Positions 2-34,200 of a DNA stretch of 34,200 nucleotides are shown here, piece after piece (the first letter of the stretch is position 1; each line of letters opens with the position of its first letter). This stretch comes from a virus, in the IMG/VR virus record IMGVR_UViG_3300008116_000467, positions 1 to 34,200 of that record. The stretch is one strand, 5' to 3'. A program made the translations under genes and the position numbers. The notes beneath the pieces were generated by a model that saw nothing but the letters and a program-made list of their open reading frames with translations, ran no database searches and was not told the DNA's origin.

Positions 2-484
2 GCAAATCATTCTAGCAATAGTTCTAATCATTCTGCTAACATTTCTAATTTTGCAAACAGTAGCTCTAACTCTGCAAATGCTTCTGCTGCAAATGCAGCT
101 GGAGTAAGTGCTAATGCTAATGCTGCCGCAAATTCTGCAGCAAATAGTTCTAACTTTGCAAACAATTCTAGCAATAGTGCTAACACATCAGCAAACCACG
201 CATCAAATTCTAGTAACTTTGCTAACAATAGTTCTAATAGTGCAAATACATCTGCAAATCACTCTGCCAATTCATCTAACTTTGCAAACAATAGTTCTAA
301 CAGTGCTAATACATCTGCTAACCATGCAAGCAATTCATCTAATCATTCTGCTAATTCTAGTAACTTTGCTAACACATCTAGCAACCATTCAGCTAACTCA
401 TCAAACTTTTCTAACAATTCTAGCAACTTTGCTAACACTGCTAGTAATGCAGCTAATGCGGCTAACGCTGCAAGAGATGCTGCT
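2..484 (+). repeat. 21-bp (seven-residue) Asn/Ser/Ala tandem repeat
   Basis: Twenty-three in-frame heptads of the type S-N-x-A-N-x-S. Heptads 8-16 (149-337) form a higher-order unit of three heptads present three times. The protein repeat is nearly exact, while the DNA alternates AGT/AGC with TCT/TCA serine codons and GCA with GCT, so it is conserved at protein level. The low complexity also keeps other frames open on both strands. Confidence 0.85.
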
Positions 485-709
485 TTAACAGCGGCTGACA
501 ATTTTGATGATACATATTTAGGTGCTAAAGCAAGTGATCCAACATTAGATAATGATGGTGGTGCTTTGAATGCTGGTGATCTTTACTTTAACTCAACTTC
601 TAGTGTATTGAAATATTATACAGGTTCTGCTTGGTTAACTGTAGAAGCTACTGATACAAGTACTTTTGCAACTAAAGGATTTAGTATTGCAATGTCAATC
701 GCATTATAA
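2..709 (+). CDS. Tail fibre protein, C-terminal part (5' end outside window)
   Basis: Open from the first base to a TAA at 707-709, 235 residues visible, start outside the window. Residues 1-161 are 23 uninterrupted seven-residue repeats rich in Asn, Ser and Ala, which suggests a trimeric coiled-coil-like shaft. About residues 168-215 form a motif often seen in tail fibres of marine podo- and myoviruses (FDDTYLGAKASDPTLDNDGG, then an LYFN and a YTGSAWLTV segment), probably a small beta domain. The protein ends in a short Ser/Ala-rich tail. It opens a run of virion genes on the same strand, all adhesion or decoration types. If the genome is circular or terminally redundant, its N-terminus would follow the giant protein cut at the other end of the window. 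Fibre assignment is good; receptor specificity is unknown. Confidence 0.8.
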   Translation, partial: ANHSSNSSNHSANISNFANSSSNSANASAANAAGVSANANAAANSAANSSNFANNSSNSANTSANHASNSSNFANNSSNSANTSANHSANSSNFANNSSNSANTSANHASNSSNHSANSSNFANTSSNHSANSSNFSNNSSNFANTASNAANAANAARDAALTAADNFDDTYLGAKASDPTLDNDGGALNAGDLYFNSTSSVLKYYTGSAWLTVEATDTSTFATKGFSIAMSIAL

Positions 710-11443: not shown

Positions 11444-11737
11444 TTATCTCCTGTAGGGTTGCTTTTGAAAAGTGCCTGCAGGTTTAGCTGCGGCAGCTCC
11501 ATCTTTAGCTGGTTTAACAGAATAGATAGACAAGAACTCTGTGCCTTCAGGCATAGACTTTCCTGCTCCAACTACTTTTTTATAACCACCTATATATAAC
11601 TTTGATGATGCACTTGCATCAGCAACTAGCTTATAACCAGCTAGTATTGCTGTACCTGTGAAATCAAAGTCTGTTTCTTTTTCTTTAGTTGAAGGATCTG
11701 TAAAGAATATCCCTCCACTGTTTTTAGCATCAGCCAT
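11444..11737 (-). CDS. Putative single-strand DNA-binding/OB-like accessory protein
   Basis: 97 residues, very strong SD (AGGAGG) 5 nt before ATG, start overlapping the ERF gene end. Beta-rich: NSGGIFFTDPSTKEKETDFD, FTGTAILAGYK, KLYIGGYKKV, then PEGTEFLSIYSVKP and a flexible Ala/Pro/Gln tail ending QPYRR. The layout (Gly-x-hydrophobic start, KE, D-F-x-G, a Gly-Tyr strand and FLSIYSVKP) recalls small phage OB-like proteins. Position beside an annealing protein and an exonuclease agrees with a ssDNA-binding partner. No sequence signature proves it. Confidence 0.45.
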   Translation of the reverse strand: MADAKNSGGIFFTDPSTKEKETDFDFTGTAILAGYKLVADASASSKLYIGGYKKVVGAGKSMPEGTEFLSIYSVKPAKDGAAAAKPAGTFQKQPYRR

Positions 11738-12245
11738 TAAAACCTCCTATTTTGGTTTGGTTGATTATGTTTGTTCTTGCAGAGCTTTGTGAAAACTTTG
11801 AAATTGGTTCTGGTTTTAGATTGTGAAGTTCACTCTCTTCATCATCACCTATTTCAAGCATAAAAGTTTTTAGCAAAGCATATTTAGTTGCATAACTAAT
11901 TGCCTTACCTATTCCTTTATCTGATGGATCAACTCCATATCCAACAAATCCCTGCGCTGTGTAACTATCTTTTGGATCATCTACGTTCATAAATTTCATG
12001 TCTATAGACACCATTGTAAAGTTACCTTCTCTTGAATGATTAGACACAGAAGGAATTGCAATAATTCCCTGCTTAATCATCTCAGTCTTGATGGTGTTAT
12101 TTACTTCATTGTGAGTTACAATTTTGTAAGGAACTCCACCACGAGCTGTCTCTTTTGTTACAGACTTAGCATTCTTCATTACATTATACATACGTATAGC
12201 TAATGAAGGCAGATCTACGTCTTTAAACATTTCTTTATTTGTCAT
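11730..12245 (-). CDS. ERF-family single-strand annealing protein
   Basis: 171 residues. The defining ERF block is present: TAQGFVGYGVDPSDKGIGKA followed by ISYATKYALLKTFMLEIGDD (about 96-135), with the earlier LAIRMYNVMKNAKSVTKE and the GNFTMVSIDMKFMNV strand. ERF proteins of the P22 type anneal complementary single strands during recombination and genome circularisation or concatemer formation. It is paired with the exonuclease at 12433-13410 and a putative OB-like protein, a complete recombination set. Shorter than P22 Erf (about 204) but within the family range. Confidence 0.88.
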   Translation of the reverse strand: MTNKEMFKDVDLPSLAIRMYNVMKNAKSVTKETARGGVPYKIVTHNEVNNTIKTEMIKQGIIAIPSVSNHSREGNFTMVSIDMKFMNVDDPKDSYTAQGFVGYGVDPSDKGIGKAISYATKYALLKTFMLEIGDDEESELHNLKPEPISKFSQSSARTNIINQTKIGGFNG

Positions 12246-12436
12246 TATATCACCTTTATTGTTATTGCCTGGAGAATGGCTTGCACACTCTCCAGGTTAT
12301 TTAAAATCAGACATAAAAGGGAGAACAAAATAAAACCAACTATAGTGTTTTTTATTTTATTAACGAATTGTCTGCTTTTAAATTTATTAATTTCACAAGT
12401 TGGATTAACAACAATCATTTCAATAGTTCTCTTCAT
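12245..12436 (-). CDS. 63-residue single-span membrane protein
   Basis: ATG overlaps the end of the exonuclease gene (ATGA) and its stop overlaps the ERF ATG (TAATG-type). N-terminal basic region (KFKSRQFVNKIKN), then a hydrophobic helix at about 33-46 (IVGFILFSLLCLIL), then an amphipathic stretch (SVQAILQAITIKVI). Type unknown. Its placement inside the recombination operon is curious; it might anchor replication or recombination to the membrane or block superinfection, both speculative. Confidence 0.5.
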   Translation of the reverse strand: MKRTIEMIVVNPTCEINKFKSRQFVNKIKNTIVGFILFSLLCLILNNLESVQAILQAITIKVI

Positions 12437-13410
12437 TTAGTAAAACCCCATAATTGCATTGCTTTGTTTTTGTATTGAGATCCAATGTTCCAGGCATAAG
12501 GATGATCAAAGTCTGGGTCCAGATCAGTAAAATAACTATGCTCACCATTGTGTCTCGCCATTAATCTTTCTCTTCTGTAAGCAACTATCTGCGCTTGATT
12601 AACATACAAGTTTAAATTTTCAGGTTGTAACTGCTCACAGTTTTCAGGTGTAAATAATTTGTATTGATCTTTAGTTACATATAATAAATAAGGTTTTTTC
12701 TTCGTTGCATGCCAATAGATTGCAACTTGTAATAAATGATTAGCATCAATATTATCGTTGATTGTAACATTATAAAAAGAAGTTGTTCCATCTTTTTTAG
12801 GTTTAGGAGCTTTCCTTCCCCATTTAGTTTTTAATTCCAGGAATGATGTTTCGTCTTCAAAATCTATTCTACCAATAATTGGCAGCACACAATTTTTTAA
12901 TTTAACTGCAATAGTTCTCTCACAATGAACTGGTTTTTTAAAACCTACTTCACTGAATGCTTTAAAAAATGTTTTAATTGTTTCTGTTAAATTTTCTCTG
13001 TTGTTTTGGAATTGCTGACGATCTAAATCATTTACAGGTTTGTATTCCATGTAATAAGTCTCAGCTTGTTCGTATACTTTTTGAAATATGCTATCGTTAA
13101 TCTCTGGATAAGGTTTGTGAATAACATGTTTATCTCCTACCCATTCTACATCTGCATATAATAATATTCCTGCTTTACCTACAGCATTGCCGGCTTGCAT
13201 CTTAGAATTAATATCAAACTCTCTGCGATCCTTCTCATCACAATATAAATATTTAAAACTCCATACTCCATCTTTTTGATTTAACTGCGATGGTGAGAAA
13301 TGATCTATATTATATTTTTGGGACCAGATCGGAAGCAGCTCTTTTTTTTTCTTAGTTGCAAAATAATCAGATAAAACTTTATCTGGTAAATAGTTTGATA
13401 ATGTTTCCAT
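12433..13410 (-). CDS. PD-(D/E)XK exonuclease (RecB/Cas4-like)
   Basis: 325 residues from ATG 13408-13410; a TTG three codons upstream is also open. Order of motifs: HFSPSQLNQ (about 37-45), the usual N-terminal helix of RecB/Cas4-type nucleases; GRID at 180-183; E-L-K at 192-194 (the (D/E)xK pair); and LLQVAIYW at 226-233, the Q-x-x-x-Y motif IV. All catalytic elements of the RecB nuclease family are visible. With ERF it forms a two-component recombinase: strand resection then annealing. First gene of the minus-strand operon, next to the divergent control region. Confidence 0.8.
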   Translation of the reverse strand: METLSNYLPDKVLSDYFATKKKKELLPIWSQKYNIDHFSPSQLNQKDGVWSFKYLYCDEKDRREFDINSKMQAGNAVGKAGILLYADVEWVGDKHVIHKPYPEINDSIFQKVYEQAETYYMEYKPVNDLDRQQFQNNRENLTETIKTFFKAFSEVGFKKPVHCERTIAVKLKNCVLPIIGRIDFEDETSFLELKTKWGRKAPKPKKDGTTSFYNVTINDNIDANHLLQVAIYWHATKKKPYLLYVTKDQYKLFTPENCEQLQPENLNLYVNQAQIVAYRRERLMARHNGEHSYFTDLDPDFDHPYAWNIGSQYKNKAMQLWGFTK

Positions 13411-13514
13411 ATCGTTCAATACAGCTTATGAATTAATGTAGAACAAATAACAATAGAATAGTTATTGACATTGTTCATAAGTTAACCAGTTGTATTAATA
13501 GTTTATTTGGCTAT
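13411..13514. promoter_or_regulatory. Divergent control region with nested inverted repeats
   Basis: 104 bp between the minus-strand exonuclease gene and the plus-strand Cro-like gene. CTTATGAA (13425-13432) pairs with TTCATAAG (13474-13481). GAACAA (13441-13446) pairs with TTGTTC (13471-13476), and AATAAC (13446-13451) with GTTATT (13461-13466). A TTGACA at 13465-13470 has no good -10 at 17 bp. Overall a plausible operator/promoter region for both operons. Confidence 0.5.
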
Positions 13515-14213: not shown

Positions 14214-14398
14214 ACCAAAACATATCTGAAGATAGTGTTGCTGCATTAAGATTTTGTTTGGAACAAATTATTAATGATCAGAAGGGTTGTATTGAAAGGC
14301 AGGAATTTATAATTTTAGATTTAAAAAAAAAGGTAGATATTTTAACAGAAGAACTACAAGTAAATCAATTACAAATTTCTAAATTATTAAAAAAATAA
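14210..14398 (+). CDS. 62-residue coiled-coil protein
   Basis: ATGA overlap upstream and TAATG overlap downstream. Nearly all helical with heptad hydrophobics (LRFCLEQIINDQKG, then IILDLKKKVDILTEEL and QLQISKLLKK), so a dimeric coiled coil is likely. No other motif. Probably a small adaptor or regulator. Confidence 0.5.
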   Translation: MNQNISEDSVAALRFCLEQIINDQKGCIERQEFIILDLKKKVDILTEELQVNQLQISKLLKK

Positions 14399-15048
14399 TG
14401 TATTTAAATGCTAATATACCATTAATTGAGTGTTATGTACGAGGAAACTATTTAAGAGATCAACAAGATTCTCACGATAAATATTTTTGGTGCGTAGTGT
14501 TTGGAGTTACAAGTATTCCCAAGCAAGTTCCTTTATTTAATTTTGTAATGGAAGATGGTGGTATTTGGTGGCGATCACCGATCTCAGCATTTTGCCAGGA
14601 TGAAGGGGTGCCAGAGCAGCCGCTTGCAGAATTATGTTTATGGGATTCTTTTTCATATAATATTTCAGTAACAACATTTCATCAGTTAGCAGGTGCAAAG
14701 ATACAATTTTTACAACGAGATAAAACTCCACAATTAGGCAAGTATATGTTTACACTAGACTGGTCTGAAGGTGATTTTAATGAATTAGATTTTGGTTATG
14801 CAAGCAAGCCAGATCAACACAAGTGTGGACATGTTATTCAAATGGATAATGGTAACTTTGCTATACAGCCGAATAATAGAATGAGAGTATTTGATTCTAA
14901 TATGGGTGTAAACTGGAGCGAACCACCTTTGATTAATAGATTAGTTAATACAAAAGTTTGGAGTGTAGAGGATGAACCCAAGTGGACAACAACAGAAACA
15001 GAAATTGGACAATATAATTACGAGTATAAAAATACAGAAGATAAATAA
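14398..15048 (+). CDS. Conserved phage protein of unknown function
   Basis: 216 residues, TAATG overlap upstream and downstream. Characteristic pieces: MYLNANIPLIECYVRGNYLR, MEDGGIWWRSPISAFC, LCLWDSFSYNISVTTFHQL, TLDWSEGDFNEL, then PDQHKCGHVIQMDNGNFAIQ followed by PNNR. I recognise this arrangement as a family shared by cyanopodoviruses and other marine phages that has no assigned function (memory). Beta-rich, with conserved Trp, Cys and Asn; probably cytosolic. Its location with DNA-metabolism-type genes rather than virion genes suggests an early/middle role. Confidence 0.6.
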   Translation: MYLNANIPLIECYVRGNYLRDQQDSHDKYFWCVVFGVTSIPKQVPLFNFVMEDGGIWWRSPISAFCQDEGVPEQPLAELCLWDSFSYNISVTTFHQLAGAKIQFLQRDKTPQLGKYMFTLDWSEGDFNELDFGYASKPDQHKCGHVIQMDNGNFAIQPNNRMRVFDSNMGVNWSEPPLINRLVNTKVWSVEDEPKWTTTETEIGQYNYEYKNTEDK

Positions 15049-23873: not shown

Positions 23874-26147
23874 ATGGCAAGAGTATCAACAGCTCTTACT
23901 AACTTTACTGGGGGTCAGTTATCTGATCGTATGGAAGGAAGAACAGACTTCCAAAAATATTTTAGTGGCTGCAAAACTTTAGAAAATTTTATAGTTCAGC
24001 CGCATGGTTCGGTTACACGAAGACCAGGAACTACCTTTGCAGCAGAAGTTAAAACATCTTCTTTAAAAACAAGATTAATCCCTTTTGAATTTTCAACTGA
24101 ACAATCTTATGCTTTAGAATTTGGAAATGAATATATTCGTTTTTATAAAGATAATGGAGCTGTATTAGAAGCTAACAAAACTATAACAGGTATTACACAA
24201 GCTAATCCTGGTGTTGTTACATCTACATCACATGGTTTTTCTAATGGAGATACAGTTGTTATTACTGGTGTTGTGGGAATGACACAAGTTAATGGTAAAA
24301 GATTTAAAGTAGCAAGTGTTGCAGCTAACACATTTGCATTACAAGATATAGATGGTGTTAATGTTAACACAACTTCTTACACAGCTTATACATCAGCTGG
24401 TATTGCAAATAGAGTTTATACATTAGTAACAACTTATCTAACTGCAGATTTATTTGAAATTAAATATGCTCAATCAGCAGATGTAATGTATTTATGTCAT
24501 CCTGATTATTCAGTTAAAAAATTATCAAGAACTGGACATACGTCTTGGACTATTACAGAAGTAGATTTTACAAGTGGTCCCTACCTAGATGATAATATTA
24601 CAACTACAACATTTACTATGTCAGCATTTACAGTTGGAGCTAGCAGAACATTAACAGCATCCGCTGTAACTGGAATTAATAACAATACAGGTTTTCAATC
24701 TACTGATGTTGGTAGACTTTTTCGTTTTAGAACTGGTCATGGAGAGATCACAGCTATTACCAGCACAACAGTTGTAACAGCAACAGTTATAAAAGACATG
24801 ACTTCTTCAACTGCTTCTACTGACTGGGCATTAGGAGCTTTCTCAGACACTACTGGTCATCCTTCTTGCGTAACATTTTATGAACAAAGATTAGTATTTG
24901 CAGGAACTACTGATCAACCTCAAACATTATTTTTTTCAAGATCTGGTGATTATGAAAACATGGATGAGAATAGAGGGGGAACTGTTGCTGCAGATGATGC
25001 AATGATTTATACAATCGCATCAAACCAAGTAAACGTCATACAATCTTTAAAGGCAACAAGAACATTAATTATATTAACATCAGGTGGTGAATTTACATTA
25101 AACTCAGATTCTACCGGAACTGCAGTATCGCCTACAAATATTAATATTAAAAAACAATCTAATTATGGAGCATCAAATATAGATGCACTATCAGTTGGTA
25201 ATGCAACTTTATTTGTTCAACGTGCTAAAAGAAAATTAAGAGAACTTGCTTATAATTTTGACACAGATGGATATGTAGCACCAGACATGACTATCCTAGC
25301 CGAAGACGTTACCTTATCTGGATTAGATGAATTAACATACCAACAAGAACCTCATAGTATTATTTGGGGAATTCGTGGAGATGGAGTTTTAGTTGGTTTA
25401 ACTTATCAAAGATCAGAACAAGTTGTCGCCTGGCATCAACATAAATTAGGTGGATCTTTTGGAGCTACAGCTCATGGTATAGTTGAAAGTGTTATTTCTA
25501 TTTCTGGAAATTCTTATAATAGAAGTGATGAAGATCAAATATGGATTATTGTTAAACGTACTATTAATAGTGTAACAAGACGTTATGTAGAATATCTTAC
25601 ACCATTTGAATTTGATAGTTCACTTACACAATTTCAATTTGTAGATAGCGCATTATCTTATTCTGGATCTTCAACTTCTACACTTACAGGATTAGATCAC
25701 CTTAATGGACAAACAGTTAGCGTAGTAGCAAATGGATCAACACATCCTGATGAAGTTGTGGCTTCTGGATCTATTACATTAGATAGAACTACAACTGCTG
25801 CAAAAGTAGGTTTAGCATATACATCAAAATTGCAAACAATGAGATTAGATGTTGGATCACAAGATGGAACTTCACAAGGAAAAACAAAAAGAATATTTGA
25901 TGTTACATTAAGATTTTATGAAACAGTTGGAGCTAAAGTGGGTCCAGATACTTCTAACTTAGAAGAAATACCATTTAGATCTTCTGCTGCATCTATGGAT
26001 GTTGCTGTGCCACTTTTTACTGGAGATAAGAAAATTGAGTTTAGAGGTAACTTTGAAACTGATGGTTATTTATTTGTAGTTCAAGATCAAGCATTACCAA
26101 TGACATTATTATCATTATATCCAAGATTGATTACTAATGATGGATAA
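23874..26147 (+). CDS. Tail tubular protein B (T7 gp12-like nozzle)
   Basis: 757 residues, ATG 2 nt after the tail-A stop. N-terminal TALTNFTGGQLSDRMEGRTD, F-Q-K-Y-F-S-G-C-K-T-L-E-N-F-I, PHGSVTRRPGTTFAAE and R-L-I-P-F-E-F-S match the start of gp12-like tail-nozzle proteins. Later come FYEQRLVFAGTTDQPQTLFF, SRSGDYENMD and LTSGGEFTLNSDS, a beta-propeller-type region. Contains a mostly beta N-terminal insertion (TNPGVVTST-like repeats at about 100-190). Forms the tail nozzle and channel. High certainty. Confidence 0.92.
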   Translation: MARVSTALTNFTGGQLSDRMEGRTDFQKYFSGCKTLENFIVQPHGSVTRRPGTTFAAEVKTSSLKTRLIPFEFSTEQSYALEFGNEYIRFYKDNGAVLEANKTITGITQANPGVVTSTSHGFSNGDTVVITGVVGMTQVNGKRFKVASVAANTFALQDIDGVNVNTTSYTAYTSAGIANRVYTLVTTYLTADLFEIKYAQSADVMYLCHPDYSVKKLSRTGHTSWTITEVDFTSGPYLDDNITTTTFTMSAFTVGASRTLTASAVTGINNNTGFQSTDVGRLFRFRTGHGEITAITSTTVVTATVIKDMTSSTASTDWALGAFSDTTGHPSCVTFYEQRLVFAGTTDQPQTLFFSRSGDYENMDENRGGTVAADDAMIYTIASNQVNVIQSLKATRTLIILTSGGEFTLNSDSTGTAVSPTNINIKKQSNYGASNIDALSVGNATLFVQRAKRKLRELAYNFDTDGYVAPDMTILAEDVTLSGLDELTYQQEPHSIIWGIRGDGVLVGLTYQRSEQVVAWHQHKLGGSFGATAHGIVESVISISGNSYNRSDEDQIWIIVKRTINSVTRRYVEYLTPFEFDSSLTQFQFVDSALSYSGSSTSTLTGLDHLNGQTVSVVANGSTHPDEVVASGSITLDRTTTAAKVGLAYTSKLQTMRLDVGSQDGTSQGKTKRIFDVTLRFYETVGAKVGPDTSNLEEIPFRSSAASMDVAVPLFTGDKKIEFRGNFETDGYLFVVQDQALPMTLLSLYPRLITNDG

Positions 26148-26589
26148 CATTAATATTATTCCTTTTAAAAAGGAACATGCACATCATATTATTAGCAATC
26201 CAATGAATGATCCTGCTATTCAGATTGCACCGCAATTTAAAAAATATGCATTATTTTTAGAAATACCAGGAATGTCATTTACTGCTATTAAAGATGGAAA
26301 GATTGTGGTATCAGGCGGTATTGGTATATTATGGGATAATGTTGCTGAGGGATGGGTTTTGGCAACTAATGATGTATGGAAGAATCCTATATCTATTGCA
26401 AGACACGTTAAAAAAAAACTAGATATTTTAACAAAAACTTATAAAGTGAAAAGATTACAAACCGCTGTAAAAGCAGATTTTGTTTTAGGGATAAAATTTG
26501 CTGAATGGTTAGGTTTAAAATCAGAGGGTTTAATGAAACATTATGGACCAGATGGTGCTGATTACATAAGGTTCGCAAAGATTTATTGA
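26137..26589 (+). CDS. GNAT-like gp13-slot virion/assembly protein
   Basis: 150 residues, ATG within the end of the tail-B gene (ATGATGG; either ATG possible). Pattern MDNINIIPFKKEHAHHIISN, a SFTAIKDGKIVVSGGIGILW strand pair, W-V-L-A-T-N-D and KTYKVKRLQTAVKADFVLGI resembles the GNAT-fold proteins in the position of T7 gp13. In T7 this is an internal virion/assembly protein without proven acetyltransferase activity. The acetyl-CoA R/Q-x-x-G-x-G/A loop is not clear, so a structural role is more likely. Confidence 0.65.
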   Translation: MMDNINIIPFKKEHAHHIISNPMNDPAIQIAPQFKKYALFLEIPGMSFTAIKDGKIVVSGGIGILWDNVAEGWVLATNDVWKNPISIARHVKKKLDILTKTYKVKRLQTAVKADFVLGIKFAEWLGLKSEGLMKHYGPDGADYIRFAKIY

Positions 26590-26590
26590 T

Positions 26591-27037
26591 ATGTCATTCG
26601 TAGGTGATCTAATAACTGGACAGTCGCAGAAAAAAATAGCTAACGCTAATGCTGCTTTATTAGAACGAGATGCTGTTGTTTTAGAACAAAAAGCGCAGCA
26701 AGGATATAAAGTTTATGAAAAATTTGATCTACCACAAATTTATGCACTAGAAACAAAATCAACTGGAGACATTAGAACTGGTTATGCAGTAAGAGGAGTT
26801 ACAGAAGAAGGAACTGGTTTAAGAGTATTTATGGACAATGCTCTAAACTTTGCAAGAGATAGAGATATGCTAGAATATAATGCTCTTGTTAAAAAAGAAC
26901 AATTAGAAAATGAAGCTGTAATGAGAAGAGCTGAAGCAAGAGTTGAAAGATATCGTGGACAAGTTGCTGAAACTGTAAGTTACTTTAAAGCCGGAGCATC
27001 TTTGTTAGGCAATTACCAAACCGCAACAAAAAAATAA
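26591..27037 (+). CDS. Internal virion protein B-like (T7 gp14-like)
   Basis: 148 residues, ATG 1 nt after the previous stop. Ala/Gln/Glu-rich helices (KKIANANAALLERDAVVLEQ and KKEQLENEAVMRRAEARVER) with an R-G-Q-V-A-E-T and a C-terminal small hydrophobic segment (YFKAGASLLGNY). This composition, size and position match T7 gp14, which after ejection forms the outer-membrane part of the DNA translocation channel. Function by analogy. Confidence 0.7.
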   Translation: MSFVGDLITGQSQKKIANANAALLERDAVVLEQKAQQGYKVYEKFDLPQIYALETKSTGDIRTGYAVRGVTEEGTGLRVFMDNALNFARDRDMLEYNALVKKEQLENEAVMRRAEARVERYRGQVAETVSYFKAGASLLGNYQTATKK

Positions 27038-27043
27038 TAATTT

Positions 27044-29167
27044 ATGGCAATTAAAATTTATCAATCTCAAATTAGACCCACAGAAGAAATAGGCGCTGTA
27101 CAAACAACTCCTGGTATGAGAGTTAGTATGGAAACAGCATCAGCTCTTGGAGCTGCCTCATCTAAATTTACCGGAGCTGTTACAGATTTTATTATAGAAA
27201 AAGAAAAAGTAAAAGCCGATACAGAAATTTTAGAGAAAAAAGAAAAGATATATAATGGCGATGAAAATATTCCAGGTTTATCTAAAGTTAAAGAAGATGC
27301 ATCTAAAATGGAAGATCCTGATCAAGCAGATAAATATTATAAAGAAGAATTTAAAAAGATTCAAGATTATCATTCACAAACTACTAAAAGTTTTTTAGCT
27401 AAAAGATCACTTGAAGCATTTCTTCAAAAACAAGCTGTAGAAGATTCTATTCTTATTAGAAACTCTTCTACTAATAATTTATTAGAAAGAAATAGACTTG
27501 CAGTAGAAGCAAATACTGATCGTTTAAAAAAATCTATTGTTTATGGAAAGACTGATCTTGAAATATCTAATGCACAAAATGAACTTAATACTATTTTAGA
27601 ATCTGATGTTTATAATAGAGTTTATGGGAAAAAAGCTGCAGAAGAAAAAAACAAAGTTAGAGAAGATGTAGATTATTATAAAGGTTTAAGAACACTTGAT
27701 CGTGATCCAGCAAAGATTAATGATGTTGTTGCAAATTCTGCTTTACCTATAGAAAAGATTGAAAAGTTAAGATCTCATGCAAAACTATCAGCTCTTAAAA
27801 TAGATGAAACATCAGGCAATAACTTAAAAGATTATGAAGCTCAAATTGATAAAGGCAATGATCCAGGAATTAATGCTCTTAATGCTGCAAAAGAAAGATC
27901 TATAGCAGTTGATAATTTTGATAACGCAAGAAAGATTGATGCTCTAATTCAAAAAAGAGATATTATTTTAAACATTAGAAGTAAATCGCTTTCAGAAATG
28001 GATGCAGAAATTAGTAAAATGGAAACAATGATTACTACTGCAAAAGCTGAAAACAAAGATGTACCTATTGCTGAATTAAAAAAATATGAAATAGTTAAAA
28101 AATTTAAAGCAGATTTACAAACAGATTTAGAAAAAGATTTATTAAGAACAGCATCTGAAAGAAACATTGTTACTTTAAATAGTATTAATTTTAACGATGT
28201 AATGATTAATCCATCTGAAGAAAATAAAAAACTATTTACAGAAAGTCTGGCAGCAAGAAAAAATTCAGCAACTACTGCTGGTAAATATTATAACTTACCT
28301 ACAAGATTTTTTACTGATGCAGAATCTAAACAATTAAAAGCTATTGTTGAAAAATCTACAGATAGTAAAATGTTATTACAATTAGCATCAAACATAACAA
28401 ATGGTTTTGGCGCTGATGCTCCAGCTGCATTTTCTGAAATCTCTAAAGAGAATGCATTATTTGCGCATGTTGGTGGTATTACAATGTTTAATGGTGGAGT
28501 TCCAACTAAAGGAGCTGCAGATGCTATTGATGGTTATTTATTAAGTAAAAATAAAAATATTAAATTAGAAAACTTTAGAGAAAAAGATAAATCATCTATT
28601 ATATCAGGTTACCAAAAAGCATTTACAGGAGTTGGAGCTGAAACATTTAACAGAGTTATTGAAACAGCTGATAATATTTATTTAAAAAGAACTTATGATG
28701 CAAATGAATTAAACAAATCATTTAGTTCATCAAGATATACAGAAGCATTAAATGAAGCAGTTGGTTCATTAAAAGTTAATGGAAAAGAATATGGAGGATT
28801 TGATAAATATAATGGTTTAGATGTTGTTGTTCCTGCTTATGTTAAAAAAGGTAACTTTAATAATATTATTGATTATTTAGAAAAAAATGAAAATGTTTTA
28901 AAAAAATCTGGTTCATATACTGATCCTCAAGGAAACGCAGTTGAAACATTACCATTAGATAGAAATGGAAAAGAAATTAAAATATTCTCTGAAAAGTTTT
29001 TTGGTGATCCTTACTTTGTAACAGTGGGTCCAGGAAGATATAAAATATCTTTATCAAAACCTTTTGGTTCAAATGTACAACCTGAATATTTGTTAAATAA
29101 AAATGGCGGTTATTTTATCGTAGATCTTAATAAGATTAAAGGAGATCTAGGAACAGTAAATAAATAA
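27044..29167 (+). CDS. Large internal virion/ejection protein (T7 gp15-like slot)
   Basis: 707 residues, no SD. Mostly alpha-helical and lysine/glutamate-rich with long Ala/Asn runs: starts YQSQIRPTEEIGAVQTTPGM, has FTGAVTDFIIEKEKVKADTE and many coiled segments to about residue 430, then a mixed C-terminal part (SSRYTEALNEAVGSLKVNGK, KIFSEKFFGDPYFVTVGPGR). Position and length agree with T7 gp15 (747), which lines the periplasmic channel. No lytic transglycosylase motif is evident. Sequence identity to T7 is not expected. Confidence 0.7.
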   Translation: MAIKIYQSQIRPTEEIGAVQTTPGMRVSMETASALGAASSKFTGAVTDFIIEKEKVKADTEILEKKEKIYNGDENIPGLSKVKEDASKMEDPDQADKYYKEEFKKIQDYHSQTTKSFLAKRSLEAFLQKQAVEDSILIRNSSTNNLLERNRLAVEANTDRLKKSIVYGKTDLEISNAQNELNTILESDVYNRVYGKKAAEEKNKVREDVDYYKGLRTLDRDPAKINDVVANSALPIEKIEKLRSHAKLSALKIDETSGNNLKDYEAQIDKGNDPGINALNAAKERSIAVDNFDNARKIDALIQKRDIILNIRSKSLSEMDAEISKMETMITTAKAENKDVPIAELKKYEIVKKFKADLQTDLEKDLLRTASERNIVTLNSINFNDVMINPSEENKKLFTESLAARKNSATTAGKYYNLPTRFFTDAESKQLKAIVEKSTDSKMLLQLASNITNGFGADAPAAFSEISKENALFAHVGGITMFNGGVPTKGAADAIDGYLLSKNKNIKLENFREKDKSSIISGYQKAFTGVGAETFNRVIETADNIYLKRTYDANELNKSFSSSRYTEALNEAVGSLKVNGKEYGGFDKYNGLDVVVPAYVKKGNFNNIIDYLEKNENVLKKSGSYTDPQGNAVETLPLDRNGKEIKIFSEKFFGDPYFVTVGPGRYKISLSKPFGSNVQPEYLLNKNGGYFIVDLNKIKGDLGTVNK

Positions 29168-32100
29168 TGTCATTCTTTTTTGAAGAAGAAAAATCTACTA
29201 ATGTTTTACTAGAACCTAAAGAAAATTTTTACGCAAAAAAAGAAGCTCCTCCTGAACAAGAACAATTAGGTGGTGTTGAAGCTAGAGCTAAAGGAAGAGA
29301 AAAATACTTTACAGCAAAAGAATATTTAGAAAACTACAACGCATCAAGACAATCCTTTGATAAATCTAAATCAGAAGTATCTGAGATTAATAATCTTGAT
29401 AATGCCTGGAGCGAAATCACTGATATTATGATTAAAAATAATGTTCAGTTTGATAATCCAATGCCAGATCTGGATTTTTATAAAACAGAATTTGGACTAG
29501 AAGGTTATGAAACAAGACACGAAAGAGTTACTAGAGCTTTAACATTATTACAAGAAGAGCAAAATAAAAATGAAAATTTAAAACTAGAATTAGAAAACAA
29601 ATCATTAAATAATTTAGATGCCATTCTAAAAAAGATTAGTGTTGATGCAAAAGACTCTGAAGCATACGCAAATGAACTTTTTGAAAATACAAACTTTTCT
29701 GGCAAAGTAGGTAACCTTGCAGGAAACGCAGTTAGTTATTTAAGAGAACCAAGTGTGTTTACTACATTACCTCTTGGTTTAGCTTATGGTTTTGGAAGAA
29801 CAGCATTAGGGACATTTTTAAAAACAGCATATTATGAAGGAGTTTTGGGAGCAGGATCTGAAGCATCAAGACAATTAAATGTTCAACCTTATAGAGAAAA
29901 ATTAGGATTTGAAGGAGCAGGTTTTGAAGCTGGAGCTAAAGAAGTTGCTTACTCTGCAATTTTCGCTGCAGGTATTGGTGGTGTATTAAACACAAGTATT
30001 TTTGGAATATCTAAACTATTTGCAAATGCCACACCTGATATGCAAGTAAAAATGATTGCTAAAATTCAAAATAATATTGAAAATCTAACTGATGAAGATT
30101 CTTTAAAAATTTATAAAGAAAACTTTCCAGAACAATTTAAAACAAAAGATACTGATGCTGCGGCTGAATTTATAGAAAATAGAGTTTTTGAAGAAAAACA
30201 AAATCCAATGGTGGATAATGTTAGAAGCAGAGATTTACATAATGAAAGAGCTGCAGAAGCAACTTTAAAATTATTAAATGATGAACCAATTACAATACCT
30301 GATGAATTACCACAAAAATTAAAATTTGAAGATATTCTTAAAGGAGCATCTATAGAAGAATTTAATATTAATAAATTAACAACAGACGCAAAGACTTTTC
30401 AATATAAATCAGAAACAAATGAATTTGGTATATCTCAAAAACTTATGGATGTTACTAAATGGGATCAGCCAAGCGCAAGCACTCTTTTAGTTTATGAGTT
30501 TAAAGATGGTAGATTAGCAGTCGTTGATGGACATCAACGATTTGGATTAGCAAAAAAATTAATAGATCAAAAACCTAGATTATATGGATATAGAATTAAA
30601 GAAGTAGATGGTTATGTACCAGATCATGCAATGCTTCAAGGTGTTGCAATTAATCTAAGACAAGGAACAGGTACTGCTATTGATGCCGCTAAAATGATGC
30701 GTGTTAAAAATTTTGATATTAATGCAATCATGGCAAGTATGCCAGTTAAATCAGAAATAGTTAAAGTTGCACAAGGTTTAACAAAATTATCTAACGATTC
30801 ATTCTCAATGGTAGTTAATAAATTTATTGATTACAAAGTAGCATCTAGAGTTGGTGAATTATTACCTGATAAAGAATTGCATGCATCTGCATTAACAATA
30901 TTAAAAAAACAAAAATTTGATAATATGCAGCAAGTAGATCTTATTCTTAAACAGATTAGAGAAACTCCTTCTGTTAAAATGAAGGAACAAACATTGTTTG
31001 GAGTTGAAGAATTTAAACAATCTTTAATTGTTGAAAAATCAATATTATTAACAAACTTTGCAAAAAGCACAAAAGACAAGAAAAAGTTATTCTCACTTGT
31101 TGTAAGTAAAGATGAATTATTGACTTCTGCCGGCAATAAGCTAGATAATATTAATAACGAAAAAATATTAACACAAAATGCGAAGATCCAAGAAAAAATT
31201 GAAATCCTTGCAACCAGAGTTGGACAACTCTCTACAGATCTCACAGAAGCAGCCAGACTCTACCAAGCAGGAAACAAAGCAGAAGCAAGAAAATACTTTG
31301 CCGACGCTGTCGATCGAGCAGCAGAAAGAGGCGATTTTGATGGGATCAATGTTAGCGGATCACCAGACAATAATGCAATTAAAACTGAAATACAAACAAG
31401 CACTGCAGGAAGCAGACCAGAATCAGAAAACATAAGTAATAAGTTATTTGACGAACCAGGTGGAAAAGGTTCAGTTGAGCAAAGTCAATCATTAAAAAAC
31501 GAAATACTATTAGATACAGAAGTTCCTACTGCTAAACCTACACAAACAGATTTAACTAATTCTTTAAATGCAGAAAACAAAATTCTTAATTTAGAAGAAC
31601 AAAGAATGGTTAATGATATTGAGCAAAGAATAAATTCAGGCGCTGCAACAAAACAAGATGTTATTGATATTGAAAACAGTAATCTAGTTAAAAAAATAAT
31701 AGAAGATCAAGATGCTTATTATGAAATTAATCGTACTGATATTGAACCTAATTTTGTTAATGGAAGATTTACAGAAGAATACTTAAATAATAAAATTTAT
31801 AAATTGGGACAAGATGAATACAAAGGAATAGAGACAGTATTAAATGCTGTATATAAAACAGGATCTGAAACAAAAGATCGTATTGCTGTAATTATAACAG
31901 GAGTACCTGCTTCTGGGAAATCAAAATTTACAAATGAAGTTAAAGACGTTACTAAAGGAATGGTAATTGATTCTGATGATTATAAAAAATTAATACCTGA
32001 GTATAAAAATGGTATTGGCACATCATCAGTACACAACGAAAGTAAAGAATTCTTTAAAAGAATGTTAAAAAAAACCATTACTAATGGAGATAATATTATT

Positions 32101-32658
32101 ATTCCAACACTTGGAAGGAACGAAGAACCATTAACTAAAATAATTAATTCTTTAAAAAGCAAAGGATATGGAATTGCTATGATAAGAGTTGATGTTCCTC
32201 TTGCTGTTGCCGAGTTAAGAAACATTAAAAGAGCTATAAAAACAGGCAGATATGTTGATAGTCAAATCATTACAAAAGAAGTTGATAATAATATTAAAAC
32301 AATTTACAATAAACTAACAAAGGAACAAATAAATGTCAGAGCTGAAATTGATGGCACAGTTGAAGACACCATCAGATACATTAGTGGATCAAAAGAAGAA
32401 ATTGCACAAAATTTACGAAGATGGAGAGAATTACGAGCTGAAACTCCTGAAGGAACTGGAGCAAGAGCTATTGTTAGAGAAGAACCAATAGTTACTATTG
32501 GCGATGATACTGCAAGTATTTTAGATCAAGAATTTTCATTAAGCACTAAATTAGATGATGTTAATGAAATTGTTCCAGAATTAAAAACTATGAGACAAAT
32601 TCTTGATGAAGAAAATCAAACTAATTTATTTATTAACAGATTGGCAGACTGCGTATGA
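29167..32658 (+). CDS. Giant virion ejection protein with ParB-like and Zeta-toxin-like domains (polyvalent protein)
   Basis: 1163 residues, TAATG overlap with the gp15-slot gene. (1) 1-175 charged, helical. (2) About 180-290 Gly/Ala-rich hydrophobic (SYLREPSVFTTLPLGLAYGF, KEVAYSAIFAAGIGGVLNTS), a possible membrane-inserting part. (3) About 390-510 ParB-like: VVDGHQR at 452-458 after LLVYEFKDGRL, then VAINLRQGTGTAIDAAKMMR. (4) Helical linker about 660-770 with distinct codon use. (5) About 880-1080 P-loop kinase resembling Zeta toxin: Walker A G912-VPAS-GKS919, D-S-D-D-Y (935-939), and AELRNIKRAIKTGRYVD. Zeta toxins phosphorylate UDP-N-acetylglucosamine; ParB-like folds can be CTPases or nucleases. 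Injected with DNA, such domains could act on the host at once. Assignments are motif-level; activity unproven. Confidence 0.75.
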   Translation: MSFFFEEEKSTNVLLEPKENFYAKKEAPPEQEQLGGVEARAKGREKYFTAKEYLENYNASRQSFDKSKSEVSEINNLDNAWSEITDIMIKNNVQFDNPMPDLDFYKTEFGLEGYETRHERVTRALTLLQEEQNKNENLKLELENKSLNNLDAILKKISVDAKDSEAYANELFENTNFSGKVGNLAGNAVSYLREPSVFTTLPLGLAYGFGRTALGTFLKTAYYEGVLGAGSEASRQLNVQPYREKLGFEGAGFEAGAKEVAYSAIFAAGIGGVLNTSIFGISKLFANATPDMQVKMIAKIQNNIENLTDEDSLKIYKENFPEQFKTKDTDAAAEFIENRVFEEKQNPMVDNVRSRDLHNERAAEATLKLLNDEPITIPDELPQKLKFEDILKGASIEEFNINKLTTDAKTFQYKSETNEFGISQKLMDVTKWDQPSASTLLVYEFKDGRLAVVDGHQRFGLAKKLIDQKPRLYGYRIKEVDGYVPDHAMLQGVAINLRQGTGTAIDAAKMMRVKNFDINAIMASMPVKSEIVKVAQGLTKLSNDSFSMVVNKFIDYKVASRVGELLPDKELHASALTILKKQKFDNMQQVDLILKQIRETPSVKMKEQTLFGVEEFKQSLIVEKSILLTNFAKSTKDKKKLFSLVVSKDELLTSAGNKLDNINNEKILTQNAKIQEKIEILATRVGQLSTDLTEAARLYQAGNKAEARKYFADAVDRAAERGDFDGINVSGSPDNNAIKTEIQTSTAGSRPESENISNKLFDEPGGKGSVEQSQSLKNEILLDTEVPTAKPTQTDLTNSLNAENKILNLEEQRMVNDIEQRINSGAATKQDVIDIENSNLVKKIIEDQDAYYEINRTDIEPNFVNGRFTEEYLNNKIYKLGQDEYKGIETVLNAVYKTGSETKDRIAVIITGVPASGKSKFTNEVKDVTKGMVIDSDDYKKLIPEYKNGIGTSSVHNESKEFFKRMLKKTITNGDNIIIPTLGRNEEPLTKIINSLKSKGYGIAMIRVDVPLAVAELRNIKRAIKTGRYVDSQIITKEVDNNIKTIYNKLTKEQINVRAEIDGTVEDTIRYISGSKEEIAQNLRRWRELRAETPEGTGARAIVREEPIVTIGDDTASILDQEFSLSTKLDDVNEIVPELKTMRQILDEENQTNLFINRLADCV

Positions 32659-34200
32659 GTTATAAAGATTGTATTACAAATGGTATTGCAGAAGGTAATG
32701 TTACCAAAAATCAAGCTGATGAACAGATAAAGTTATTTGATGAAAAGGTAGAAGAATATTTAGCTAAAGGAATGTCGCAAGCCGATGCTGAAAAACAAGC
32801 AGCTAAAGATTCATTTGATATTTTTAAATACGAAGCAGCAGAAAAAAAACGTAGAGAATTATTAACTCTTAAAGCTCAACAATCAATATCAAAACATTTT
32901 AAAACATACAGAAATATGAATGGAGAAGTAGATTATGGAAATGCCGGTATTTCTATTTTATCTCCTGATGACTATTCACCATACGTTACTGTAGAAAACC
33001 AAGTTAAGGTTATTAAGGGACAAGCTCATAAAATATTAGTTGATGTATTAGATACATTTAAACCTGGCATTGGTGGTTATACAAGAAATAAAGCTACACT
33101 AACTATGTTAGTTAGAGAAATTATTGAACCTGGTTCAACTACAAATCAAGCAGCAAAAGAAATGGCAGAAGCATGGAAAGCATCTTCTGAATTTTTAAGA
33201 TTAGAATTTAATAAATATGGTGGAAGAATACCATCTAGAAAAGATTGGGGACTACCACAAATACATGACACTTTAGCAATTAGAAAAACAAATAAAGAAG
33301 ATTGGATTAATTATACTATTGATAGACTAGATCCTGTTAAAATGATTAATGAAAAAACCAAACTTCCATTTAATGAAAAGACTTTAAGATTAGCATTATC
33401 AGATGTTTATGAAACAATAACTAATGAAGGTTTTAATAAAGTTAAAGCTACACAAAGAACTTTTGGAAGTAATCTTGCATCACGTTATACAGATCATAGA
33501 TTTTTAGTTTTTAAAAATGCACAGTCTTGGATTGAATACCAAAATAGATTTGGCAATAATAATGCATTTCAGGTGATGATGGATCACATTAATAAAATGT
33601 CTAGAGATATTGCATTAATGAAAGTTCTTGGAGCAAATCCTGATGCTACTATTTCTTACATGACTACTCTTATTAAAAAACAAGCTCAAACAGATGTTAC
33701 TAAACAAGTAAGACTTCCTGTTGCTAAACAACAATTAGAAGAAGCAAAAGCATTACTTGCTAAATCTACTGATCCTGTTGAAATTGAAAAACTTAATAGA
33801 CAAGTAAGTCAATATGCTCAAGATATTTCTGATGCTGAAAAATTTAATAGAAAGTCAATAGCTCAATTTTTTGGTTCATTAGAAGAAGATAGAGCTAATA
33901 CCAAAATAGAATTAATTAAAAATTTATATGGTTATCATAAAGGTGCTTTAACAAACCCAGTTGATGGGTTTGTAGCAAGATCTTTAGCAGGATTAAGACA
34001 TATATTAACATCAGCTCAATTAGGATCTGCATCAGTTCTTGCATTAACAGACTTTAACTGGAGTAGAGCTGCTTCAGCTCATATTGGTTTACCTCAACAC
34101 AGAACAGCACAAAATAGTGTTAAATTATTATTTGATCCACTTGATAAAAAAGGTAAAGCAAAACTTGCAATTAGACTTGGTTTAGTTGCTGAACATTGGA
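32655..34200 (+). CDS. Giant virion-associated protein, N-terminal part (runs off window)
   Basis: ATG overlaps the stop of the ParB-Zeta gene (ATGA). The frame stays open to the window end, about 515 residues. Opens MSYKDCITNGIAEGNVTKNQ, helical and Lys/Glu-rich to about 120, then PGIGGYTRNKATLTMLVREI, WGLPQIHDTLAIRK, SRYTDHRFLVFKNAQSWIEY, NNAFQVMMDHINKMSRDIAL, M-K-V-L-G-A-N-P and a more hydrophobic part (LRHILTSAQLGSASVLALTD). This pattern occurs in very large internal virion proteins in the gp16 slot of non-T7 podoviruses. No lytic transglycosylase motif is seen yet. Probably another ejected protein; domains beyond 34200 unknown. Confidence 0.65.
   Translation, partial: MSYKDCITNGIAEGNVTKNQADEQIKLFDEKVEEYLAKGMSQADAEKQAAKDSFDIFKYEAAEKKRRELLTLKAQQSISKHFKTYRNMNGEVDYGNAGISILSPDDYSPYVTVENQVKVIKGQAHKILVDVLDTFKPGIGGYTRNKATLTMLVREIIEPGSTTNQAAKEMAEAWKASSEFLRLEFNKYGGRIPSRKDWGLPQIHDTLAIRKTNKEDWINYTIDRLDPVKMINEKTKLPFNEKTLRLALSDVYETITNEGFNKVKATQRTFGSNLASRYTDHRFLVFKNAQSWIEYQNRFGNNNAFQVMMDHINKMSRDIALMKVLGANPDATISYMTTLIKKQAQTDVTKQVRLPVAKQQLEEAKALLAKSTDPVEIEKLNRQVSQYAQDISDAEKFNRKSIAQFFGSLEEDRANTKIELIKNLYGYHKGALTNPVDGFVARSLAGLRHILTSAQLGSASVLALTDFNWSRAASAHIGLPQHRTAQNSVKLLFDPLDKKGKAKLAIRLGLVAEHW

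Follow-up and report, generated by a model that had tools for sequence, protein, structure and literature searches.

Exchangeable enzyme slot, zeta-fold kinase and lone cysteine in P0001, a polyvalent-type protein from the internal-virion block of a likely SAR11 phage

Polyvalent proteins are long, multidomain proteins which are encoded near virion genes and combine a ParB/sulfiredoxin-fold (ParB/Srx-fold) domain with effector enzymes. According to Iyer et al. 2017 (PMC5512222) their components comprise DdrB-like ParB, RelA/SpoT and zeta-toxin-like kinase domains, and the zeta-like kinases are proposed to weaken the cell wall. The text places these kinases in conjugative elements and MuF fusions, describes domain shuffling in Helicobacter prophage proteins and leaves Pelagibacter unmentioned. 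A zeta and a ParB-like domain are also united in gp114 of the halovirus HCTV-5, annotated 'zeta toxin and ParB nuclease domain protein'. The idea of a polyvalent protein with both domains is already known. Here we analyze such a protein, P0001, encoded by an open reading frame (ORF) at 29167-32658 (+) of the 34.2 kb virus record IMGVR_UViG_3300008116_000467, hereafter the window. P0001 shares the properties named above for polyvalent proteins. HCTV-5 gp114 differs in that its domains are in reverse order (zeta about 168-299, ParB motif at 588), that it belongs to an unrelated virus group and that its kinase motif is of an Asp-type, that of P0001 of a Pro-type.

Three observations go beyond prior knowledge, i.e., the exchange of the enzyme in one slot of the protein, an altered pocket for UDP-N-acetylglucosamine (UDP-GlcNAc) and a pair of lone cysteines in P0001 and its neighbor. 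The exchange and the cysteine pair are the most surprising. Neither a zeta/RelA exchange within one orthologous carrier, nor a Pro/Leu pocket, nor the cysteine pair was found in the passages of PMC5512222 consulted. Taken together we consider it rather probable that P0001 is an ejected polyvalent carrier with an exchangeable enzyme slot, that the present payload is a kinase for nucleotide-type substrates, and that a cysteine link connects the carrier to the neighboring virion protein. The layout of P0001 is as follows.

29167-32658, +: P0001, 1163-amino-acid (aa) polyvalent internal-virion protein, ATG start
29167-30306, +: N-terminal region, residues 1-380, mostly helical, most hydrophobic at about 255-285
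30349-30966, +: predicted ParB/Srx-fold domain and following helices, residues about 395-600 (Foldseek; conserved block)
30520-30540, +: VVDGHQR core, residues 452-458
30967-31401, +: helical continuation of the constant core, residues 601-745
31744-32421, +: predicted zeta/PezT-fold kinase, residues about 860-1085, payload of the exchangeable slot
31900-31923, +: Walker A motif GVPASGKS, residues 912-919
31975-31977, +: Asp937, equivalent of Asp67, the proposed catalytic Asp of zeta
32104-32118, +: P980-T-L-G-R984, Pro and Leu at the positions of zeta Glu116 and Thr118, Arg120 equivalent kept
32524-32655, +: constant C-terminal tail, residues 1120-1163
32650-32652, +: Cys1162, the sole cysteine of P0001

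The original prediction, made from the sequence of the window, had described a 1163-residue gene in the internal-virion slot with ParB-like and zeta-like motifs, and this description is borne out; the slot exchange and the cysteine pair had not figured in it. The ORF is exactly as given, the slot is that of gp48 of the pelagiphage HTVC035P, and VVDGHQR, the Walker A motif, DSDD (about 935-938) and NIKR...TGR with R1022 and R1028 are all present. Functionally unrelated domains in one long protein, positioned among virion genes, and predicted ParB and zeta folds characterize P0001 as a polyvalent-type protein; several of its closest viral structural neighbors are named 'Large polyvalent protein associated domain-containing protein'. 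The expected lack of an adjacent antitoxin gene is equally evident. P0001 overlaps both neighbors, by 1 base at 29167 and by ATGA at 32655-32658, thus there is no room for a directly adjacent antitoxin gene, and the flanking genes code for virion proteins. This sets P0001 apart from the epsilon/zeta and PezAT pairs. In a search of a phage collection no record covered 80% of P0001 or of two relatives; thus, at that sensitivity, the whole architecture is present in no phage of that collection.

The kinase occupies an exchangeable slot between core and tail, with sharp breakpoints. From the 460 relatives returned by a search with the ParB core the top 80 were retained. Together with ParB-bearing proteins from a zeta search and close relatives they form 51 clusters at 90% identity; one contig with a frame break in its P0001-type gene (L007) was excluded from alignments. 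In 30 clusters the slot contains a zeta kinase, in 17 a RelA/SpoT-like domain, in 4 neither and in none both; as close relatives are overrepresented in the sample, these proportions should not be read as frequencies in the population. Of 16 non-zeta C-termini 7 match Pfam RelA_SpoT (best 4e-12), and the remaining RelA-like group is tied to these by profile comparison of a trimmed region (probability 96.8). The ParB proteins encoded in prokaryotic genome assemblies carry the same two enzyme types. Examples of RelA/SpoT-type domains in this slot, given by contig, are:

L104:11006-12100
L108:3948-5039
L120:6195-7319
L123:10206-11294

In a 45-row tree built from the ParB core, 9 changes of the zeta label and 8 of the RelA label are required, all of them forced by starred branches, i.e., at least eight enzyme switches have occurred. 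The breakpoints are best seen when a zeta carrier (L140) is aligned with a RelA-like carrier (L164). Their identity is 92-100% over residues 401-700, beyond which they are unrelated until the common tail; at the DNA level similarity ends near residue 711 and restarts near the stop codon. The slot can also be empty. An enzyme is absent from two complete proteins, L114 (808 aa) and L156 (878 aa), the latter of which resembles L135 with the payload removed in frame. Core and tail are common to all members although the enzyme varies. That RelA/SpoT-like domains replace the zeta kinase suggests that both payloads alter a nucleotide signal or pool. As a separate observation, a second ParB-like stretch seemingly lies upstream of the RelA-like domain in the variable region of two contigs (L164:11000-12697, L148:11042-13015); one member of a further alignment (A7) matches PF02195 at 0.0013.

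The kinase domain is readily assigned. Pfam Zeta_toxin (PF06414) matches residues 901-1054 with E 8.6e-17 (61.7 bits, cut-off 22.3). A model of residues 840-1163 (mean predicted local distance difference test, pLDDT, 86) has as its best match the zeta toxin with bound substrate (3q8x, E 1.2e-10), with zeta 1gvn at about 1e-10, followed by PezT and then by the polynucleotide kinase 4gp7. A family profile search retrieved zeta at 1.8e-18, then PezT, Pnkp1 and AvrRxo1, and PHROG 505 'polynucleotide kinase' also matches P0001 (2.4e-8). The fold, the Walker A motif, the catalytic Asp and the C-terminal arginines are shared with the zeta/PezT toxins. K918 corresponds to zeta K46, D937 to D67, and the R158 equivalent is kept along with a further C-terminal arginine (R1022, R1028). 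In an alignment of 81 rows, which comprises the window and its close relatives, the Walker lysine and the catalytic Asp are invariant and the R158 equivalent is present in 80.

A different picture emerges for the acceptor pocket. In zeta Asp67 is the proposed base, Arg120 contacts the phosphates, Thr118 the β-phosphate, Thr128 the uracil and Glu100 the ribose; a Thr-to-Val change at the Thr118 position renders PezT nontoxic (PMC3062530). Of the contacts of zeta with UDP-GlcNAc P0001 retains only those of Asp67 (D937) and Arg120 (R984). Thr118 is replaced by Leu982, Thr128 by Ile992, Glu100 by Lys968 and Glu116 by Pro980, and the T121 equivalent is lost as well. At the Glu116 position Pro is present in 41 and Asp in 38 of the 81 rows, i.e., there are two clear subtypes. 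With an intact catalytic core the domain is unlikely to be dead, and the altered pocket points to a different acceptor. Leu982, viewed together with the nontoxic PezT variant, makes an action on UDP-GlcNAc and the cell wall unlikely as far as residue comparisons can tell, which weakens the cell-wall kinase considered in the original prediction. The zeta fold does accept other substrates: AvrRxo1 is a zeta-fold kinase which phosphorylates NAD (PMC5491322). A supposed faster divergence of the kinase between the window and its relative L004 (64% compared to 95% in the ParB region) is not claimed. Fourfold sites are also more diverged (69% vs 89%), which is compatible with allele replacement, but these sites are few.

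In the ParB/Srx-fold domain an alignment of 34 relatives shows no variation at D454, G455, H456, Q457 and R458, while V, I or A occurs at positions 452 and 453. DdrB-like ParB domains are recognized by the ParB/Srx fold, an invariant Arg and an Asp or Asn ending strand 2. Accordingly, R458 is found in 34/34 relatives, and position 447 is Asp in 28 and Asn in 6. A model of residues 1-745 (pLDDT 67, predicted template modeling score, pTM, 0.37) matches Noc, ParB-CDP, KorB and, lower down, sulfiredoxin in Foldseek. The best match, Noc, has E 1e-3 and probability 1.00, and all top Protein Data Bank (PDB) matches are of the ParB type. The structural comparison proposed with the original prediction thus yielded both a ParB and a zeta match, and both are above chance. 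The Pfam ParB and ddrB-ParB models, including PF02195 and PF18763, do not match P0001, and ParB is absent among the matches of PDB sequence searches with the whole protein and with its alignment A5; the ParB assignment is therefore based on fold prediction and the conserved motif. P1 DdrB was rejected as a direct relative (hhalign probability 0.2). No ParA indicative of a canonical partition context turned up, though no search was aimed at ParA.

In its structural genes the window resembles HTVC010P/HTVC035P-type pelagiphages known from culture, which makes a SAR11-type bacterium the likely host. HTVC035P matches 24% of a query of 16.7 kb with 72.7% identity. Throughout the family the order is portal, scaffold, capsid, tail tubular A, tail tubular B, the 150-, 148- and 707-aa proteins, the P0001 gene and phrog_684, in agreement with the HTVC035P block. 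P0001 is therein located in the internal-virion block downstream of tail tubular B and upstream of the phrog_684 virion structural protein, and its counterpart in HTVC035P, gp48, is annotated 'putative internal virion protein'. A weak profile match to gp48 (residues 166-271) lies in the N-terminal region. The immediate neighbors are:

26137-26589, +: 150-aa protein, phrog_4177 and phrog_308 internal virion protein
26591-27037, +: 148-aa internal virion protein, phrog_418
27044-29167, +: 707-aa internal-virion protein without cysteine, first 220 residues related to HTVC035P gp49
32655-34200, +: next virion protein (phrog_684), open at the record end; only cysteine in the available part is Cys6 (32670-32672)

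In addition to its phrog_308 match, the 150-aa protein has 44% identity to HTVC035P gp51, a 'putative acetyltransferase'.

The internal-virion block is almost devoid of cysteine. The 707-, 148- and 150-aa proteins have none, P0001 has Cys1162 and the available part of the next virion protein Cys6, that is 2 cysteines compared to about 24 expected from the other genes of the window. The positions of the two are preserved in almost all relatives examined. Among 60 distinct complete P0001 relatives 59 possess exactly one cysteine, always within the last 12 residues and irrespective of the payload; the exception, L167, has no cysteine and looks cut short. In all 55 downstream proteins cysteine is present close to the N-terminus and absent past residue 10, a second one in ten of them being due solely to the mechanical choice of a start upstream of the ATG. 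A search which started from the downstream gene returned the same pattern in 50/50 pairs; it shares some contigs with the first set and the two are not independent. The pattern extends to distant, cultured phages, i.e., HTVC035P (gp48 Cys485 of 489, gp47 Cys5), Greip (gp6 Cys417 of 421, gp5 Cys6) and DVV SI2 (Cys790 of 792 and Cys6). Slot, gene order and the succession of a lone tail cysteine and a lone N-terminal cysteine are alike in HTVC035P gp48/gp47 and Greip gp6/gp5, yet the first protein has only 489 or 421 aa, respectively. HTVC035P gp48 matches the family core weakly and in the N-terminal region only, and no ParB or enzyme domain was seen in it. The downstream proteins of the window family and of this distant pelagiphage group are homologous (21% identity).

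T7 gp15 and gp16 occupy a similar place after tail tubular B and contain no cysteine, as is nearly the case for the P0001 block; unlike the latter they lack a cysteine pair and a comparable effector enzyme. The N-terminal region of T7 gp16 binds to the flexible C-terminal region of gp15 (PMC8954989), which constitutes a precedent for a contact between the facing ends of two ejection proteins. In this ejection-protein review neither cysteine nor disulfide is mentioned, and literature searches on disulfides or cysteines in ejection proteins or in pelagiphage internal virion proteins did not retrieve the pattern. The lone cysteine pair is suggestive of a latch of covalent or redox nature that would hold two ejection proteins together, and a disulfide would be the simplest reading. 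A DNA-level signal was dismissed as a reason for the conservation, as the cysteines are encoded by either TGT or TGC and lie at variable distances from the stop codon. A direct T7 gp16 homology of the next virion protein was not detected. The single 1253-aa ORF in the slot of HTVC204P (gp40, no cysteine) was considered as a natural fusion; it has no detectable homology to the cysteine-bearing proteins and provides no test of the link. This single ORF contrasts with HTVC010P (L212, 6530-11651) where the deposited internal-virion region is broken into several ORFs in different frames, possibly due to frame breaks in the record.

How might such a carrier operate? A constant frame would comprise the N-terminal scaffold, the ParB/Srx-fold domain and the short tail, with the enzyme slot between core and tail. 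Carrier and next virion protein would be packaged with their facing ends linked, probably by a disulfide which forms outside the cell. At entry the carrier would pass into the cell, and the link would be reduced in the cytoplasm. The zeta-fold kinase would have kept ATP binding and phosphoryl transfer with a rebuilt acceptor pocket, and would most likely phosphorylate, in the first minutes, a nucleotide-type small molecule of the host or a host defense signal rather than UDP-GlcNAc. The ParB-fold domain may bind a nucleoside triphosphate or the incoming DNA. The generalization that across a large group of aquatic podoviruses two adjacent ejection proteins are joined by a disulfide between their sole cysteines, which forms upon release in oxic water and is reduced in the new host, freeing a ParB carrier with a non-wall zeta kinase or a RelA/SpoT-like synthetase as cargo, is at present doubtful.

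Other functions of the kinase have to be weighed. A true peptidoglycan-precursor kinase would phosphorylate UDP-GlcNAc or UDP-MurNAc after entry and weaken or stall the wall. Such a role was already proposed for zeta-like domains (PMC5512222); zeta and PezT are the best matches by sequence and fold, the Asp67 and Arg120 equivalents are kept, and ng_zeta1 shows that zeta enzymes take other UDP-sugars via another binding mode. The loss of the T118, T128, E100 and T121 equivalents, the nontoxic Thr-to-Val change in PezT and the swap of the slot with RelA/SpoT-like domains, which have no wall action, nevertheless render this quite unlikely. A polynucleotide or RNA-end kinase which processes or repairs ends, be it of incoming DNA or of tRNA cut by host defenses, would fit the DNA-related ParB-fold domain in the same protein and the 4gp7, Pnkp1 and PHROG 505 matches. 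Yet zeta and PezT score better, no ligase or phosphatase partner was recognized adjacent to P0001, and the exchange with RelA/SpoT-like domains suggests small molecules; we regard this as an unlikely alternative. Finally, the kinase fold might be a non-catalytic structural or binding module, as an empty slot is tolerated in L114 and L156. With Walker lysine and catalytic Asp in every row and the R158 equivalent in all but one this is hardly credible.

The time and place of action and the role of the cysteines also invite different views. P0001 could act late in the producing cell, against a superinfecting phage or on the nucleotide pool before lysis, its gene place merely reflecting late expression and assembly. 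Expression together with the late structural genes is indeed what the gene position predicts, and packaging is deduced indirectly. On the other hand, the slot is the annotated internal-virion slot of cultured pelagiphages, the extreme cysteine avoidance of the block resembles T7 gp15 and gp16, and one core and tail serve all members whatever the enzyme; a late action appears very unlikely. Each cysteine could also serve its own purpose without joining the two proteins, e.g., bind a metal within the respective oligomer or, in the tail, act as a packaging signal. The contact of the cysteine-bearing ends is a prediction, and the tail is conserved beyond its cysteine. Against this the cysteines co-occur at the facing ends of adjacent products in all pairs examined, with the T7 gp16-gp15 contact as a precedent. 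Here the scales are evenly balanced.

Several points weigh against the ejected carrier with a nucleotide-type kinase and a cysteine link. The pocket residues were mapped by low-identity pairwise alignment, which places T118 and R120 more securely than E100 and T128. Thr is retained at the T118 position in some relatives of the proline type (e.g., L127, PTTG), thus the pocket differs within this subtype. Among the RelA-like proteins the more divergent group has seemingly lost motif residues H and R and may lack activity; consequently a shared nucleotide theme is uncertain. Confidence in the ParB model is modest, as its overall pTM indicates. Since assembly takes place in a reducing cytoplasm, a disulfide could form only after release. 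Reports of virion proteomics or biochemistry were not found for any family member.

Elsewhere in the window a 216-aa protein (14398-15048, +) matches PHROG 3704 'ferredoxin' with E 9.3e-55, in the category of auxiliary metabolic genes and host takeover. At 2-709 (+) a protein fragment displays a long repetitive Asn/Ser/Ala-rich stretch followed by a tail-fibre-like end. At 11730-12245 (-) and 12433-13419 (-) an Erf-like single-strand annealing protein lies next to a possible nuclease which matches a PHROG labeled 'CRISPR/Cas system associated' (8.1e-6).

Little is known about the cargo that phages deliver at entry, and particularly little in the case of viruses which infect the most abundant bacteria in water. 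The zeta subfamily in which a conserved proline replaces an acidic residue raises the biochemical question of its substrate, and the exchange in the slot provides a ready set of natural variants for comparison. If true, a redox latch would be a mechanism which is absent from the ejection-protein review (PMC8954989). At least eight switches between two unrelated enzyme families suggest that the initial minutes of infection are under strong selection.

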